Below, piece after piece: positions 55,198-64,000 of a stretch of DNA of 64,000 nt (positions within the stretch are counted from its first letter, which is position 1; every line of letters starts with the position of its first letter). The DNA comes from Arabidopsis thaliana (taxonomy: Eukaryota; Streptophyta; Magnoliopsida; Brassicales; Brassicaceae), in contig NC_003074.8 in NCBI RefSeq assembly GCF_000001735.4, positions 22,327,261 through 22,391,260 on the forward strand, given 5' to 3'. The position numbers and the translations under genes were made by a program. Under the pieces are notes generated by a model. It was not told the DNA's origin and did no database searches. It saw only the letters and a program-made list of their open reading frames with translations.

Positions 55198-55518
55198 ATG
55201 GAAACACTTCGAGACTCAAAGCTGTCAATGGAGAAATCATTACAAATTCTCAGGAGCATCACTTTACTGGTGTTCTACTCAATACAGGAAAAACATGGCG
55301 CCGAGGTGGAGAAGATGAGAACCGATCTTGATATTGAAACGGGCACAAACAAAAGTATCCAGGCAATGGATGATCACACAAAAAGGCTATGCACGGCACT
55401 TCATGAGATTGGAGCTCAAACTGAAGTTGCAAAACGCGAGCACATGCATCATCTACGGCTCCAATCTCATGAAGTCCCGCTGTTAGCACTCGGATTTGTT
55501 CTCAATTGTAGCATCTAA
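55198..55518 (+). CDS. Hypothetical 106-residue protein
   Basis: An ATG-started frame (METLRDSKLSMEKSL) of 106 residues, fairly hydrophilic in the middle (GAEVEKMRTDLDIETGT) with coiled-coil-like Leu/Glu/Lys spacing. I do not recognise it. It might be the small unknown gene annotated between CYCP3;2 and EXPB5. A perfect 18-bp inverted repeat (55398-55415 and 55458-55475) lies within it, so the apparent frame could instead be part of a hairpin-forming RNA or a gene fragment. It ends 64 bp before the duplicated EXPB5 segment starts. Confidence 0.35.
   Translation: METLRDSKLSMEKSLQILRSITLLVFYSIQEKHGAEVEKMRTDLDIETGTNKSIQAMDDHTKRLCTALHEIGAQTEVAKREHMHHLRLQSHEVPLLALGFVLNCSI
55398..55475. repeat. 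Perfect 18-bp inverted repeat (stem-loop)
   Basis: acttcatgagattggagc at 55398-55415 is the exact reverse complement of 55458-55475, with a 42-base loop. In RNA this would form an 18-bp stem. Confidence 0.9.
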
Positions 55519-55582: not shown

Positions 55583-56854
55583 CTATACGTTTTATGAGTT
55601 AAGGCTTGAATTCCCATCTTATGATGTTGTATATATGAAGAATTTGCCAAATTCAGCTTCCATATAGCCACACATCAACCAAGCCTGATGTCATAAGAAA
55701 CTATTAAAACATTGAAAATATGACAACTTCATTATAATTTCTAACACCTTACATTAGTCATATTTAGATTAAGAAGTGTTTGGTTAGAACTTAGAATCCC
55801 TAACTTCTTGTATATATTCTGACAAGTTTTTTACATTCATATGTAATACCCCGTAACTTTTTCTTTTGAGTATAATTTAAAATCATATTCAAAAACATAA
55901 AAAAGAAGTGTTTGGTTGTTTGTAGTGATGGTGTTTTGCATAGTCGGAGGATTGTACATGACAACGACTGTGTGCTTGGTTTGAGAAAGAAAATTTTAGG
56001 TTTAGAGATCGAGTTCCTTTGATACCACCCGATGATATGAATGTTTATGTAATTGATAATCTTTATTGTATAGCAAGATGACAGAGAGTAGCTAGAGTAT
56101 TGTAGAGAAGTTAATTACAATATTATACTTTACATAAAAGAGAGAGTAAGAAGAATACATAATTAGGAGACATGATTGATCAAATCATTTACTCTAATTG
56201 ATCCTTAATATTACGTTACATATATAATCCAAAATAAGTAATATAGAATTTAGAAAGTGAATATAAGAAACTAATCAAAATTAACCTTTGTTTGAACGGT
56301 AGCGGTTTTAGTTATAGTTTTTGGTTTCTAAAAAGAAAAAGAAAAACAATCATAGTTTCCAATAAGCTTTTTAAAGTTTTTTATTTCCTCAAATCTAGGA
56401 TAACTATAAGTCTTAAAAAAAAAAAAAAACAACTAGAAGTCTATAATTGTCTTTTTAGTAGAAACCTAAAGCTATTTCAGTTTGTTAAATTCTAACAACC
56501 AGAAACTAATTAAAACCTTGAAAGCTAAAAACAAAAATATATATATAAGCTCTAAAAAATCTCAACCCATTCAAGATTCTAAATCAAACATGGCTTCCTC
56601 ATCTCTCAAATGTTTTTCTTTTATCGTTGTTCTTACAACTTTCTTTGCAATCTCATTGAAGCCATGTTATTGCCACAATAAAACCCACTGGAACACCGCC
56701 GGCATCACGTGGTATGGCGACCGAGAAGGTCCTGGCACCACAGGTATTAATCAAACCTTTAATTGTTCCAATACACTTATAAAACTCGAAAACATTTTCC
56801 CATATTTACCTATATATGCACGGTTCGTAAAATATGTACACAGGAGGAGCTTGT
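55583..56854 (+). repeat. Left copy of the duplicated EXPB5 5' region
   Basis: This segment (promoter, exon 1, intron 1 and start of exon 2 of EXPB5) recurs at 62980-64000, offset 7,397 bp. Over the ~1,020 bp visible in both copies I noticed only one difference (A at 56564, T at 63961). The segment begins with ctata, which equals the target site next to the copia element. Confidence 0.92.
56590..56854 (+). pseudogene. Truncated beta-expansin 5' end (EXPB5 copy)
   Basis: Exon 1 (56590-56743) encodes a signal peptide ([20 protein letters not shown], cut near CYCHN) and the expansin start [18 protein letters not shown]. Exon 2 starts at 56844 with GGAC and stops matching expansin after about 11 bases, where copia DNA takes over. 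Beta-expansins loosen cell walls, and this copy lacks nearly all of both domains. The promoter in front of it is whole, so the fragment may still be transcribed into the element. Confidence 0.85.
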
Positions 56855-58569
56855 CCAAGTCGGTGATGCCATACTTCCTCTGTTGCTGCACACTGACGGT
56901 TTGAATAAAGAGCCACAAACTCTTGATTCTCCAACACATAGAGCCCATTTCTACGAGGACCCGTGGTTACCACTTTCTGTGTTTGTAAATCGATTATGCA
57001 AACCTTATTAGCATCAAAGTAAACACCGCAAGGATAGTCATCACACAACTTTGACACAGAGAGAAGAGATTTTTGTATATTTGGAACAACCAAGACTTCA
57101 TTTAAAGGAATCTTACCATTTGAGGATTTGATAGTGGTAGATCCAGTGTGAGTAATCGGGAGATAAGTGCCATCGCCAACCAAGACAGCATCATCCCCTT
57201 CGTACTCTGTTGCAGACTGAAGTCCATTGGTCGATGATGTTACATGAGCCGTCGCAGCTGAGTCGGGATGCCATTCCTTGCCTGTATCATCTGAGACCCG
57301 GAGAGTAGAAAAAGCTTGTATTTCAGCCTGGTAATTGTTATCAAACCGATTGTAACACTTGAGAGCAGTGTGACCAGTGCGACCACATATCTGACACACC
57401 GGTCTTGGACCTGAAACTTGTGGGGAGGATTGATGTTGGGAAAACCCTCGTCCACGAGTTGAGTAGCCTCCTCTGCCTTTATTTTGACCAGAACGTCCTC
57501 TTCCTTTTTGATTGGGGTTGTATTGAGGAGATCCAGACTCAGATCTTTCAATGTTGAAGGCAAGGTGAGGAGTAACAGATGCCGCTTCTTCATATGATTG
57601 TAGCTTACTGTCAAAGCCTTGAACTTCTGAGACAACATCATTGAAAGTTGGAGTCGGAAGCTTGCTGAGAGAGCTTTGAATCACCGTGGTGATGGGGTCA
57701 TAGTCACGACCAAGACCGTTAAGAAAACCAAAAATTTTCATTGATTCATCGACTGGCTTGCCAATGGAGCTGAGAGCGTCGCAGATGGTCTTGAACTCTC
57801 GGCAGTAGACAGAGAAAGGCTTTTCCTTTTTGGAGAGAAGCTGGAGATTCCGACGAAGTGAGAACTCACGAGCAACACTGCTTTTGTTGAAGTTTTCAGC
57901 TAGAGACACCCAAATTTGACGAGAGGTGCTTAGATTGTGAACATGACCAAGGACTTCTTCAGACAACGTGCCAAAGAGCCATGACCGAACTAACTGATCG
58001 GTACAGAACCAAGATTCATACAGAGGATTGGGTTCCTCGGAGGTGACTTCGCCATTGACGACAAGGCGAGACTGAGATGGTGCATTGACGGCGCCATTAA
58101 CAAAACCTATGAGTTTTTGACTCGATAGGAGAGACTCGAATTGAGTTTTCCACAAGAGGTAGTTACTGTCTGTGAGTTTGAGAGTAACAGAACTTGTAAC
58201 ATGAACATTATCTGGAAAAGGGTATGAGGTCGCCATTTGAAATACCTGTTAAGGCTACAAAGGCTCTGATACCATGAAACGATTAGAGAAAGTTTCAAGC
58301 TTTTGGTAAAAAATCGTTTCTTTCTCAATAATTACATTAGGGTTTTACACTACTCTTTTATAGACATTGTAGAAGGAGGTAGATATGGAACAGTCTAGAA
58401 TATGGCAGATGCTGTGTAGCTGGCTATGGTGAGTCATCAGGCAAAACGCCCCTCCTCTGTACGATCGTTGCTCTGTTTTGAGCTGGAGTCTATTTTGTCT
58501 TCTTCTATTTGACTGGGCTGAGATGGGCCTTTTGTTGTTGTTGGGCCGGTTACTTGTTTGTTGCTTACA
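56853..58569 (-). mobile_element. Partial Ty1/copia LTR retrotransposon (5' LTR plus gag and start of pol)
   Basis: On the minus strand this piece starts with an LTR (58569-58275), shared with the neighbouring complete-length copy. The primer-binding site (58274-58262, complementary to initiator tRNA-Met) and gag with a CCHC zinc knuckle come next, followed by the protease region. It stops abruptly at the fusion with EXPB5 exon 2. It is the same family as the copy at 58275-62979 and nearly identical to it, so it is young. Incomplete element. Confidence 0.88.
58275..58569 (-). repeat. Copia LTR shared by both element copies
   Basis: It serves as the 3' LTR of the complete-length copy and as the 5' LTR of the partial copy, the layout expected of a head-to-tail pair of LTR elements. 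It matches the LTR at 62685-62979 throughout. Confidence 0.9.
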
Positions 58570-61500
58570 CTCCCCCTCAAACTTGGAGTGGGTGAACCAG
58601 ACACACCAAGTTTGCTCCTGAGATCAACAAATGCTCGGCGTGGAAGTGACTTTGTAAACACGTCAGCTAATTGAAAGGTAGCTGAAATGTGTTGTGTTTC
58701 GATCAGACCGAGTGCGACCTGCTCCCTGATGTAGTGATAATCGGTATCAAAATGTTTTGAACGATTGTGGAGAGCCGGATTTGCAGATAGGTACACTGCG
58801 GAGAGGTTATCACAGTAAACTTGTGTAGGAAGATATTGGGGAATGCCGAGATCTCGCAGTAAGAAAGAGATCCAAGTAATTTCTCGTGCTGCATAGGTTA
58901 GAGCTCTGTATTCTGCTTCGGTAGAGGAATTAGACACTGTAGGTTGTCGTTTTGTCGACCAAGAGATCAAGTTGGAGCCTAACAAGATGCAGAATCCAGT
59001 AGTAGACCTTCTAGTATTCTTGCAGCCCGCATGATCGCTATCACTGTAGGCAGAAAGAGTAAGAGTAGAGTTCCTTTTTATTGGCAAACCCATTCCAATT
59101 GTCCCTTTGATGTACCGTAGTATCCGTTTGAGCAGTCCGAAGTCAGAGGTTGTAGGGGAGTGCATTCTCTGACAAATAAAATTGACAGCAAACTGAATGT
59201 CTGGACGTGTGATGGTGAGATACTGCAGTTTTCCCGCAAGGCTTCGAAAATAGGTTGGTTCTGCAAATAGCTCAGAATTGAGGTTGTCCAATTGTTGTGG
59301 TAGAGGAGTTGGCATGGGGTTGCAATCACTCATTCCTGCCTGTTGTAAAATGTCTGTCGCATAAGCCGTCTGATGTAGAAAGAGACCATTAGCATAATCT
59401 TCAATTTGAATACCCAAGAAATAGCGAGGTGGACCAAGATCCTTCATAGAAAACCGATTCTTGAGAGCTTGTAGAAGATCTTCTAAGAGAGATTGATCAC
59501 TGCCAGTCAACAAAATGTCGTCAACATATAACAGTAAATAGAGTATTTTTCCATCTTGATGACACACAAATAATGAGGGGTCCGATTTACTGCAGACAAA
59601 TCCATAATCAAGAAGAAAGTTGCTGAAAGTATCAAACCATGCCCGTGGCGCTTGTTTCAAACCGTAGAGGGCTTTCGTGAGACGACAGACATGAGTGGGT
59701 TTCTGAGGATCAATAAAACCTGAGGGTTGGTACATGAAGACCGGTTCTTGCAGCTCACCGTGTAAGAAGGCATTGGAGACATCAAGCTGCTTAATAGGCC
59801 AACCTTTTGATGTTGAGACATCAAGAACAAGACGAATTGTTGCTGTCCGAACCACAGGACTGAACGTTTCTAGATAGTCCACCCCTTCCTCTTGATCGAA
59901 GCCCTTAGCCACTAGACGAGCTTTCAGTTTATCGATTGAGCCATCCGGGTGAAGTTTGGTTTTAAAAACCCACTTGGAGCTTAGAATATTCATATCATCA
60001 GTTGGAGGAACCAACGACCATGTATGCAACATATGGACCCGGTTAATCTCCTCATGTACTGCTTCATTCCAACCAGGATGCTTCATAGCGGATGCAAGGG
60101 TTTTTGGTTCAGCAGTATTCATTCGAGAGGTGATGAGAGCATACCTCGTGTTTGGCTTTTGAATTCCTGCCTTTGATCTTGTGGTCATTGCATGAGAATT
60201 GATTACTTGTTCTTGATTTGCAGCAATCTCTTCTGCTACTGGATTCACTTCTTCATCACTTCCTTCATTATTAGAGGTAGGTTCAGGATCTGTCAGTTGT
60301 TCTGTAACTTGAGATCCTGCATATGTATTAAGATCAATCGGTTTAGAAAACAATTGGACTGGAGCTGCAGGTACTGAAATCTCACTGATCTTGTTATGTT
60401 GCCAAGCTTGAAGAAGAGGTGTTGAGTACTGAGGGACTAGAGATTGATACTTTTCCTTGAATGGTTTTTCAGACTCATTGAAGATAACATTTCTTGAGAT
60501 ATAGACCTTGCCTGTTGGAGGGTAAAAACAGCGATATCCCTTATATTGGCTGTTATATCCAAGGAACACACATTGCAAGGAGCGCGGATCGAATTTGTTT
60601 TGAGCGAGAGGTCTGAGACAAGGATAACATGCTGAACCAAACACACGGAGAGATGAATAGTCTGGCTTTTCCCCAAATAACGCTTCATATGGACTCAAAT
60701 TCTTCAAGACAGAGGATGGTAAGCGATTAATGATGTAATTGGCAGTGAAGAAGGATTCTACCCAAAACTTCTGAGGTGTATGACTATGAAAGAGCATAGA
60801 CAATCCAAGCTCCACAAGATGTCTATGTTTTCGTTCGGCCAATCCGTTTTGCTGTGGGGTATAGGGGCATGAGATTCGATGATGGATGCCATGCTCACTG
60901 AGATGTGTTTTTAACTTGTTGCTCACAAACTCTCCTCCTCCATCACTCTGAAATACTTTGATCTTAGTGTTTAGCTGGTTCTCTACCAACTTCTGAAACG
61001 AAATAAAAACTGAGAGAAATTCTGACTTGTTGTGCAAAGGATAGAACCAAGAGTATCTTGAATAATCATCAACAAAAATAGCATAATATTTGAGGCCTTG
61101 GTTGGATACAACTGGAGAAGGACCCCATAAATCACAATGAATCCGATCTAGAGGATGTAAAACACGAGAATCTGAAATTAAAAATGGTAGTCTTGAACTT
61201 TTCCCCATCTGGCAAGGTTCACAAACTGGAGATGTTCTGCTCTTATTTATCTGAATCGCCTTGCTGTTTTGAAGGTGCTGGAGAGCCTTAGAATTTGCGT
61301 GTCCAAGTCGGTGATGCCATACTTCCTCTGTTGCTGCACACTGACGGTTTGAATAAAGAGCCACAAACTCTTGATTCTCCAACACATAGAGCCCATTTCT
61401 ACGAGGACCCGTGGTTACCACTTTCTGTGTTTGTAAATCGATTATGCAAACCTTATTAGCATCAAAGTAAACACCGCAAGGATAGTCATCACACAACTTT

Positions 61501-62684
61501 GACACAGAGAGAAGAGATTTTTGTATATTTGGAACAACCAAGACTTCATTTAAAGGAATCTTACCATTTGAGGATTTGATAGTGGTAGATCCAGTGTGAG
61601 TAATCGGGAGATAAGTGCCATCGCCAACCAAGACAGCATCATCCCCTTCGTACTCTGTTGCAGACTGAAGTCCATTGGTCGATGATGTTACATGAGCCGT
61701 CGCAGCTGAGTCGGGATGCCATTCCTTGCCTGTATCATCTGAGACCCGGAGAGTAGAAAAAGCTTGTATTTCAGCCTGGTAATTGTTATCAAACCGATTG
61801 TAACACTTGAGAGCAGTGTGACCAGTGCGACCACATATCTGACACACCGGTCTTGGACCTGAAACTTGTGGGGAGGATTGATGTTGGGAAAACCCTCGTC
61901 CACGAGTTGAGTAGCCTCCTCTGCCTTTATTTTGACCAGAACGTCCTCTTCCTTTTTGATTGGGGTTGTATTGAGGAGATCCAGACTCAGATCTTTCAAT
62001 GTTGAAGGCAAGGTGAGGAGTAACAGATGCCGCTTCTTCATATGATTGTAGCTTACTGTCAAAGCCTTGAACTTCTGAGACAACATCATTGAAAGTTGGA
62101 GTCGGAAGCTTGCTGAGAGAGCTTTGAATCACCGTGGTGATGGGGTCATAGTCACGACCAAGACCGTTAAGAAAACCAAAAATTTTCATTGATTCATCGA
62201 CTGGCTTGCCAATGGAGCTGAGAGCGTCGCAGATGGTCTTGAACTCTCGGCAGTAGACAGAGAAAGGCTTTTCCTTTTTGGAGAGAAGCTGGAGATTCCG
62301 ACGAAGTGAGAACTCACGAGCAACACTGCTTTTGTTGAAGTTTTCAGCTAGAGACACCCAAATTTGACGAGAGGTGCTTAGATTGTGAACATGACCGAAC
62401 TAACTGATCGGTACAGAACCAAGATTCATACAGAGGATTGGGTTCCTCGGAGGTGACTTCGCCATTGACGACAAGGCGAGACTGAGATGGTGCATTGACG
62501 GCGCCATTAACAAAACCTATGAGTTTTTGACTCGATAGGAGAGACTCGAATTGAGTTTTCCACAAGAGGTAGTTACTGTCTGTGAGTTTGAGAGTAACAG
62601 AACTTGTAACATGAACATTATCTGGAAAAGGGTATGAGGTCGCCATTTGAAATACCTGTTAAGGCTACAAAGGCTCTGATACCA

Positions 62685-62979
62685 TGAAACGATTAGAGAA
62701 AGTTTCAAGCTTTTGGTAAAAAATCGTTTCTTTCTCAATAATTACATTAGGGTTTTACACTACTCTTTTATAGACATTGTAGAAGGAGGTAGATATGGAA
62801 CAGTCTAGAATATGGCAGATGCTGTGTAGCTGGCTATGGTGAGTCATCAGGCAAAACGCCCCTCCTCTGTACGATCGTTGCTCTGTTTTGAGCTGGAGTC
62901 TATTTTGTCTTCTTCTATTTGACTGGGCTGAGATGGGCCTTTTGTTGTTGTTGGGCCGGTTACTTGTTTGTTGCTTACA
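62685..62979 (-). repeat. Copia 5' LTR (right end in the window)
   Basis: 295 bp, TG...CA ends, next to the tRNA-Met primer-binding site, followed by the target site ctata. The LTR itself meets the repeated EXPB5 promoter. Confidence 0.92.
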
Positions 62980-64000
62980 CTATACGTTTTATGAGTTAAG
63001 GCTTGAATTCCCATCTTATGATGTTGTATATATGAAGAATTTGCCAAATTCAGCTTCCATATAGCCACACATCAACCAAGCCTGATGTCATAAGAAACTA
63101 TTAAAACATTGAAAATATGACAACTTCATTATAATTTCTAACACCTTACATTAGTCATATTTAGATTAAGAAGTGTTTGGTTAGAACTTAGAATCCCTAA
63201 CTTCTTGTATATATTCTGACAAGTTTTTTACATTCATATGTAATACCCCGTAACTTTTTCTTTTGAGTATAATTTAAAATCATATTCAAAAACATAAAAA
63301 AGAAGTGTTTGGTTGTTTGTAGTGATGGTGTTTTGCATAGTCGGAGGATTGTACATGACAACGACTGTGTGCTTGGTTTGAGAAAGAAAATTTTAGGTTT
63401 AGAGATCGAGTTCCTTTGATACCACCCGATGATATGAATGTTTATGTAATTGATAATCTTTATTGTATAGCAAGATGACAGAGAGTAGCTAGAGTATTGT
63501 AGAGAAGTTAATTACAATATTATACTTTACATAAAAGAGAGAGTAAGAAGAATACATAATTAGGAGACATGATTGATCAAATCATTTACTCTAATTGATC
63601 CTTAATATTACGTTACATATATAATCCAAAATAAGTAATATAGAATTTAGAAAGTGAATATAAGAAACTAATCAAAATTAACCTTTGTTTGAACGGTAGC
63701 GGTTTTAGTTATAGTTTTTGGTTTCTAAAAAGAAAAAGAAAAACAATCATAGTTTCCAATAAGCTTTTTAAAGTTTTTTATTTCCTCAAATCTAGGATAA
63801 CTATAAGTCTTAAAAAAAAAAAAAAACAACTAGAAGTCTATAATTGTCTTTTTAGTAGAAACCTAAAGCTATTTCAGTTTGTTAAATTCTAACAACCAGA
63901 AACTAATTAAAACCTTGAAAGCTAAAAACAAAAATATATATATAAGCTCTAAAAAATCTCTACCCATTCAAGATTCTAAATCAAACATGGCTTCCTCATC
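62980..64000 (+). repeat. Right copy of the duplicated EXPB5 5' region
   Basis: A near-perfect repeat of 55583-56603, continuing past the window end. It directly follows the copia LTR, so the copia element sits about 1 kb upstream of the EXPB5 start in this copy. Confidence 0.92.
63987..64000 (+). CDS. EXPB5: Beta-expansin EXPB5, start of gene (cut by window end)
   Basis: Only the first codons (MASS) are in the window. The sequence equals the start of the truncated copy at 56590, whose exon 1 shows a signal peptide and a beta-expansin N terminus. EXPB5 would be secreted to the wall and loosen it during growth. Gene order suggests At3g60570. Whether this copy is complete cannot be seen here. 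Confidence 0.7.

Follow-up and report, generated by a model that had tools for sequence, protein, structure and literature searches.

A copia element between two copies of the EXPB5 5' segment in Arabidopsis thaliana, plausibly the product of one aberrant, one-ended integration

At its right-hand end the window, by which we mean the whole 64,000-nucleotide stretch of DNA analyzed here (bases 22327261-22391260 of chr3), contains a 1,272-bp host segment followed, from left to right, by 1,423 bp of antisense copia gag, a full copia interior between two identical 295-bp LTRs, and then the same host segment again, this second copy running on into an intact EXPB5 gene. All copia sequence between the two host copies lies on the minus strand, and nothing other than copia sequence is found between positions 56854 and 62979. 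The right host copy extends beyond the window, and the rightward flank was fetched from the genome for full comparison; with that flank included, sequence comparison reproduced every coordinate that an earlier note on this DNA had assigned to the locus, and established that the anatomy it described (host copy, partial copia, shared LTR, full copia, LTR, host copy) is real. Repeats this long and this alike lie far beyond what chance can produce. The features are as follows.

55583..56854, plus strand: host segment, left copy, 1,272 bp, running from ctata through the EXPB5 promoter, exon 1 and intron 1 to 11 bp into exon 2
56590..56743, plus strand: EXPB5 exon 1 of the truncated left copy, 154 bp, mapped against the intact right copy
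56844..56854, plus strand: opening 11 bp of EXPB5 exon 2, up to the junction with antisense copia; the frame stops a few codons on
56852..56854, no strand assigned: tgt common to EXPB5 exon 2 and copia at the left junction, from sequence comparison
56852..58274, minus strand: partial second copia copy, 1,423 bp, with leader and gag, stopping short of the integrase part and lacking the 38-bp deletion
58275..58569, minus strand: copia LTR, the 3' LTR of the full element and common to the partial copy, identical to 62685-62979
58570..62684, minus strand: full copia interior, with gag carrying a 38-bp deletion, integrase and reverse transcriptase (Pfam)
58570..58590, minus strand: polypurine-tract-like run adjoining the LTR, from sequence
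62673..62684, minus strand: primer-binding-site-like 12-mer adjoining the 5' LTR, from sequence
62685..62979, minus strand: copia 5' LTR, full length, its last base abutting host ctata
62980..64000, plus strand: right host copy, extending beyond the window to chr3 22391511, with the EXPB5 ATG at window position 63987

Alignment of the left host copy with chr3 22390240-22391511 shows that the two agree at 1,271 of 1,272 sites (1,020 of the 1,021 sites compared within the window alone), with identity stopping at 56854 in one and at chr3 22391511 in the other. The sole difference, an A at 56564 opposite a T at 63961, falls upstream of the ATG, where the host segment holds 1,007 bp of native sequence. 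The protein encoded by the intact right copy, once the fetched flank is included, is 264 aa long and has the Pfam domains DPBB_1 and Expansin_C, confirming that the gene is an expansin; the name EXPB5 is the earlier note's own, and we take the gene to be a pollen expansin gene. The truncated left copy still has all 1,007 bp upstream of the ATG, together with exon 1 and the intron 1 splice sites; it continues into antisense gag and LTR sequence and would, if spliced as predicted, give a 58-aa stub.

To place these sequences in the genome, matches were scored over 119,662,809 bases in 7 contigs; the match counts given here are lower bounds, and all comparisons refer to one reference genome with one allele per locus. 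A query consisting of the 5' host segment only, rather than the rest of EXPB5, returned at least 19 matches, two of which are full length and at least 17 shorter. Two parts of the promoter, 55792-55913 and 56036-56211, have matches elsewhere at 72-91% identity, and on this sequence similarity the EXPB5 promoter seems to hold old repeat fragments. Directly left of the duplication lies an inverted repeat of 22 nt (55394-55415 and 55458-55479), 95% complementary, with its arms 42 nt apart.

Searching five pieces of the insert separately against Pfam identified Retrotran_gag_2, gag_pre-integrs, rve and RVT_2, and the order of gag, then integrase, then RVT_2 is that of a copia-type element; no RNase H model was found in these five pieces at an E-value of 0.001. 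This domain order, together with the direct, identical LTRs with TG...CA ends (297 of 297 sites agree when two bases beyond the repeat are included), substantiates the earlier assignment to copia. A piece of the partial copy, 57049-58248, matches Retrotran_gag_2 and Pol_BBD. The LTR at 58275-58569 stands between the partial and the full unit and is shared by both, as the earlier note had proposed. The run at 58570..58590 may act as the polypurine tract, and the 12-mer at 62673..62684 resembles a primer-binding site of the initiator tRNA-Met type. Across gag and LTR the two units agree at all 1,682 aligned sites, and differ by a single gap: 57942-57979 of the partial copy, 38 bp bounded by 6-bp direct repeats, is missing from the full unit at 62389/62390, which shifts the gag frame of the latter. 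The near-identity claimed previously for the repeats is thus exact at the aligned sites of the element, and this gap had been overlooked.

The closest relative found is a copia element at chr1 11148091-11152835, which agrees with the locus at 2,725 of 2,731 pol-side sites and at 1,421 of 1,423 gag sites. In contrast to the insert on chromosome 3, this relative is a single element without the 38-bp deletion and is flanked by a 5-bp duplication, ATTGC, indicating that the element family is capable of normal integration. As the relative has no gap, the simplest reading of the difference between the two units is that the full unit suffered a deletion; both units also bear the same two gag differences from the relative, which points to one recent source. 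Among genome matches, the LTR has at least six (two at this locus, two at chr1 11.15 Mb at 99% and two at chr1 17.68 Mb at 67-69%), the gag piece at least 16, and the pol piece at least 43. Three gag matches are full length at 97% identity or better (both units here and the chr1 relative), the further ones falling to 66-86%, and two pol matches reach a rounded 100%, this locus and the chr1 relative. Since one reference provides one allele of the locus, genome LTR matches of this kind cannot reveal intermediates in its formation.

Inspection of the two ends of the insert reveals that they are unlike each other. At the right junction (62979/62980) the LTR is whole to its last base and sits directly on ctata; at the left junction it is the copia interior, within gag, that meets EXPB5 exon 2, instead of an LTR end. 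A short 5-bp target duplication at both element ends is accordingly absent, the right end lying on ctata and the left end, inside gag, on exon 2. Identity with gag reaches back to 56852, which bears out the 3-base tgt overlap reported before at 56852-56854. Overlaps of at least 3 bp arose in 5.8% of 200,000 random break-point pairs; the tgt overlap permits joining by microhomology, without proving it, and is weak evidence of mechanism. One end with an exact LTR terminus and another that is abnormal and carries a short overlap are what a one-ended integration would leave behind.

We favor, with a probability of roughly 55%, a history in which the structure is the product of one aberrant, one-ended copia integration. 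At host ctata, upstream of EXPB5, integrase would have attached a copia cDNA by its 5' LTR end, leaving the 3' LTR end unjoined. This free end would then have been lengthened by ~1.4 kb of leader and gag, either by acting as a primer at the homologous 5' LTR in a cDNA or through the cDNA having been a concatemer beforehand. By joining or by a template switch, the extended end could have become connected via tgt to EXPB5 exon 2, for which the sister chromatid is the simplest partner; from there, repair or synthesis would have gone back across exon 1 and the promoter to ctata and so reached the left flank. A single insert would result, with the 1,272-bp 'target duplication' on either side of it, one gene copy cut in exon 2 and the other intact. 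The order of these steps, the involvement of the sister chromatid and the priming event are what we infer from the observed anatomy, with its complete LTR end, truncated end, overlap and near-identical repeats. The extra gag piece is precisely what normally follows an LTR (primer-binding site, then gag), so extension of a 3' LTR on a 5' LTR suffices to account for it, and the additional 1,423 bp can be explained without the remains of a second full element. Because the appended gag does not have the 38-bp deletion of the full unit, its template would have been another molecule, or the deletion came later.

This history resembles retroviral products obtained when integration is disturbed. As described in the portions of PMC5041404 on which we draw, most aberrant HIV and ASLV proviruses have a normal end at one side, whereas the other end is often truncated and can carry additional viral sequence; the join usually involves short homology, and most commonly host sequence is duplicated over hundreds or thousands of bp. 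The authors' model there is that a free viral 3' end primes, copies nearby viral and host templates, and enters the chromosome by homologous recombination. Like these ASLV and HIV-1 products, the locus has one end at the precise LTR terminus, an abnormal opposite end to which further element sequence is attached, a short overlap and a host duplication within the size range described; the precedents are retroviral vectors with disturbed integration, whereas the element here is a natural plant copia. It is for its smaller number of steps and its close match to retroviral products, not on account of SNPs, that we place one-ended integration first. The similar youth of the host repeats and the element repeats was also counted in favor of a one-event history.

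Plant genomes offer partial parallels. According to the relevant parts of PMC11899658, 11 tandem LTR-sharing elements exist in the A. thaliana TAIR10 assembly, with a choice between complex single insertion and recombination left undecided there. The locus resembles them in having one LTR between two interiors, very high identity and the same orientation; unlike them, it is missing the outer LTR of the second unit, has no short target duplication on that side, and is flanked instead by a 1,272-bp host duplication within a gene. The selection used in that study, as far as its available text describes it, seems to need a third LTR, and at this locus the LTR-interior-LTR-interior-LTR pattern lacks both the third LTR and most of the second interior. 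For complex LTR insertions in grasses, PMC1950507 proposes template switching, with LTR sharing arising before or during a single insertion, and the parts of that paper considered here report no Arabidopsis case; those grass insertions have short target duplications, in contrast to the locus described here. Among the open-licence PMC papers listed, judged mostly by title and the start of the abstract, we saw no plant one-ended integration with gene duplication. EXPB5 together with 'transposon' gave no open-licence PMC match by word-start matching, a method blind to 'retrotransposon', and the matches to EXPB5 with 'retrotransposon' were, by title and the start of the abstract, rice and crop papers. 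The locus is an unusual natural plant example whose ingredients are already known.

The strongest competitor, to which we give appreciably less weight, is the history put forward in the earlier note, or its mirror: copia inserts normally at ctata, an unequal LTR-by-LTR exchange supplies an extra unit, and an illegitimate exchange joins exon 2 of an empty chromosome to the copia interior, with either exchange possibly preceding the other. An exchange of this type between an empty haplotype and a tandem pair would yield the exact anatomy seen, and tandem LTR-sharing elements are, according to the portions of PMC11899658 at hand, common and polymorphic in plants. It is not required, however, since one-ended integration generates the same anatomy. 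The earlier argument for it had treated ctata as a displaced target duplication, a reading that is not forced, as the 1,272-bp duplication itself begins with the five bases ctata. Any insertion with a long direct target duplication places the left ctata at the promoter and the right one at the LTR when the duplicated segment starts with these bases; a normal two-ended insertion at this site is for that reason an assumption and not an observation, and ctata carries no independent sign of one. Exchange between haplotypes also demands three events, as well as heterozygosity or an empty sister, in a plant that is mainly selfing.

Divergence between the copies does not decide between an origin within one lineage and an exchange between haplotypes. 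Assuming, for these calculations, a mutation rate of 7e-9 and a diversity of 0.3-0.7%, the one difference in 2,952 paired sites corresponds to ~24,000 generations (95% range ~600 to 135,000), and by this sequence-based measure the structure is young under either history. The youth ascribed previously to the repeats agrees with these counts (1 difference in 1,272 aligned host sites and 0 in 1,682 aligned element sites). Under haplotype exchange, one difference at most in 1,272 bp has a probability of 0.19-0.37 for a diversity of 0.7-0.3%. Likelihood ratios of same lineage over other haplotype came to 0.48, 0.68, 0.88, 0.79, 1.13 and 1.46 in six settings, so that four of the six lean slightly toward haplotype exchange and the range as a whole, 0.48-1.46, leaves divergence without discriminating power. 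Nothing in the present evidence contradicts a multi-step origin.

A less likely account, to which we attach little weight, places the gene duplication first: EXPB5 would have been duplicated in tandem, copia would have entered the second copy at ctata, and a later deletion would have removed the stretch between exon 2 of the first copy and a point inside the element. This route would arrive at the structure without an empty haplotype, and illegitimate recombination is known to remove LTR elements in Arabidopsis, a mode of loss reportedly described by Devos and colleagues in 2002. It nevertheless requires the gene to be duplicated, copia to insert, a second copia unit to be gained and a deletion to follow. 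The similar youth of the host and element repeats speaks against it, as does the stretch between 56854 and 62979, where copia stands alone. An assembly artefact in the reference is very improbable: two near-identical repeat pairs inside 8.7 kb are a classic clone-assembly risk, but the copies are distinguishable by a SNP and a 38-bp indel, the exon 2/gag joint is absent from both other copies, and a 1,571-bp EXPB5 promoter is reported to have been amplified from Col-0 DNA (PMC7916401), a product that would span the right LTR junction if it ended at the ATG.

The native sequence upstream of the intact EXPB5 is now cut short by the LTR, 1,007 bp from the ATG, so that by simple arithmetic a 1,571-bp fragment ending at the ATG (window 62416-63986) comprises 1,007 bp of native sequence, 295 bp of LTR and 269 bp of copia interior. 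The word stems 'duplicat' and 'retrotranspos' have no match in the main text of PMC7916401. Probes or guide RNAs directed at EXPB5 exon 1 would match two sites. The left copy would encode at most the predicted stub of 58 aa, and its transcript would run on into antisense gag. It is a long shot, though a conceivable one, that the left copy yields antisense copia RNA in pollen and so serves as a natural silencing source for a young family, born of that family's own failed insertion.

If the one-event history is true, failed integration of the second end of an LTR retrotransposon can duplicate and truncate a plant gene in a single step. Gene fragments and altered promoters could then arise in a way that would escape surveys based on short target duplications.
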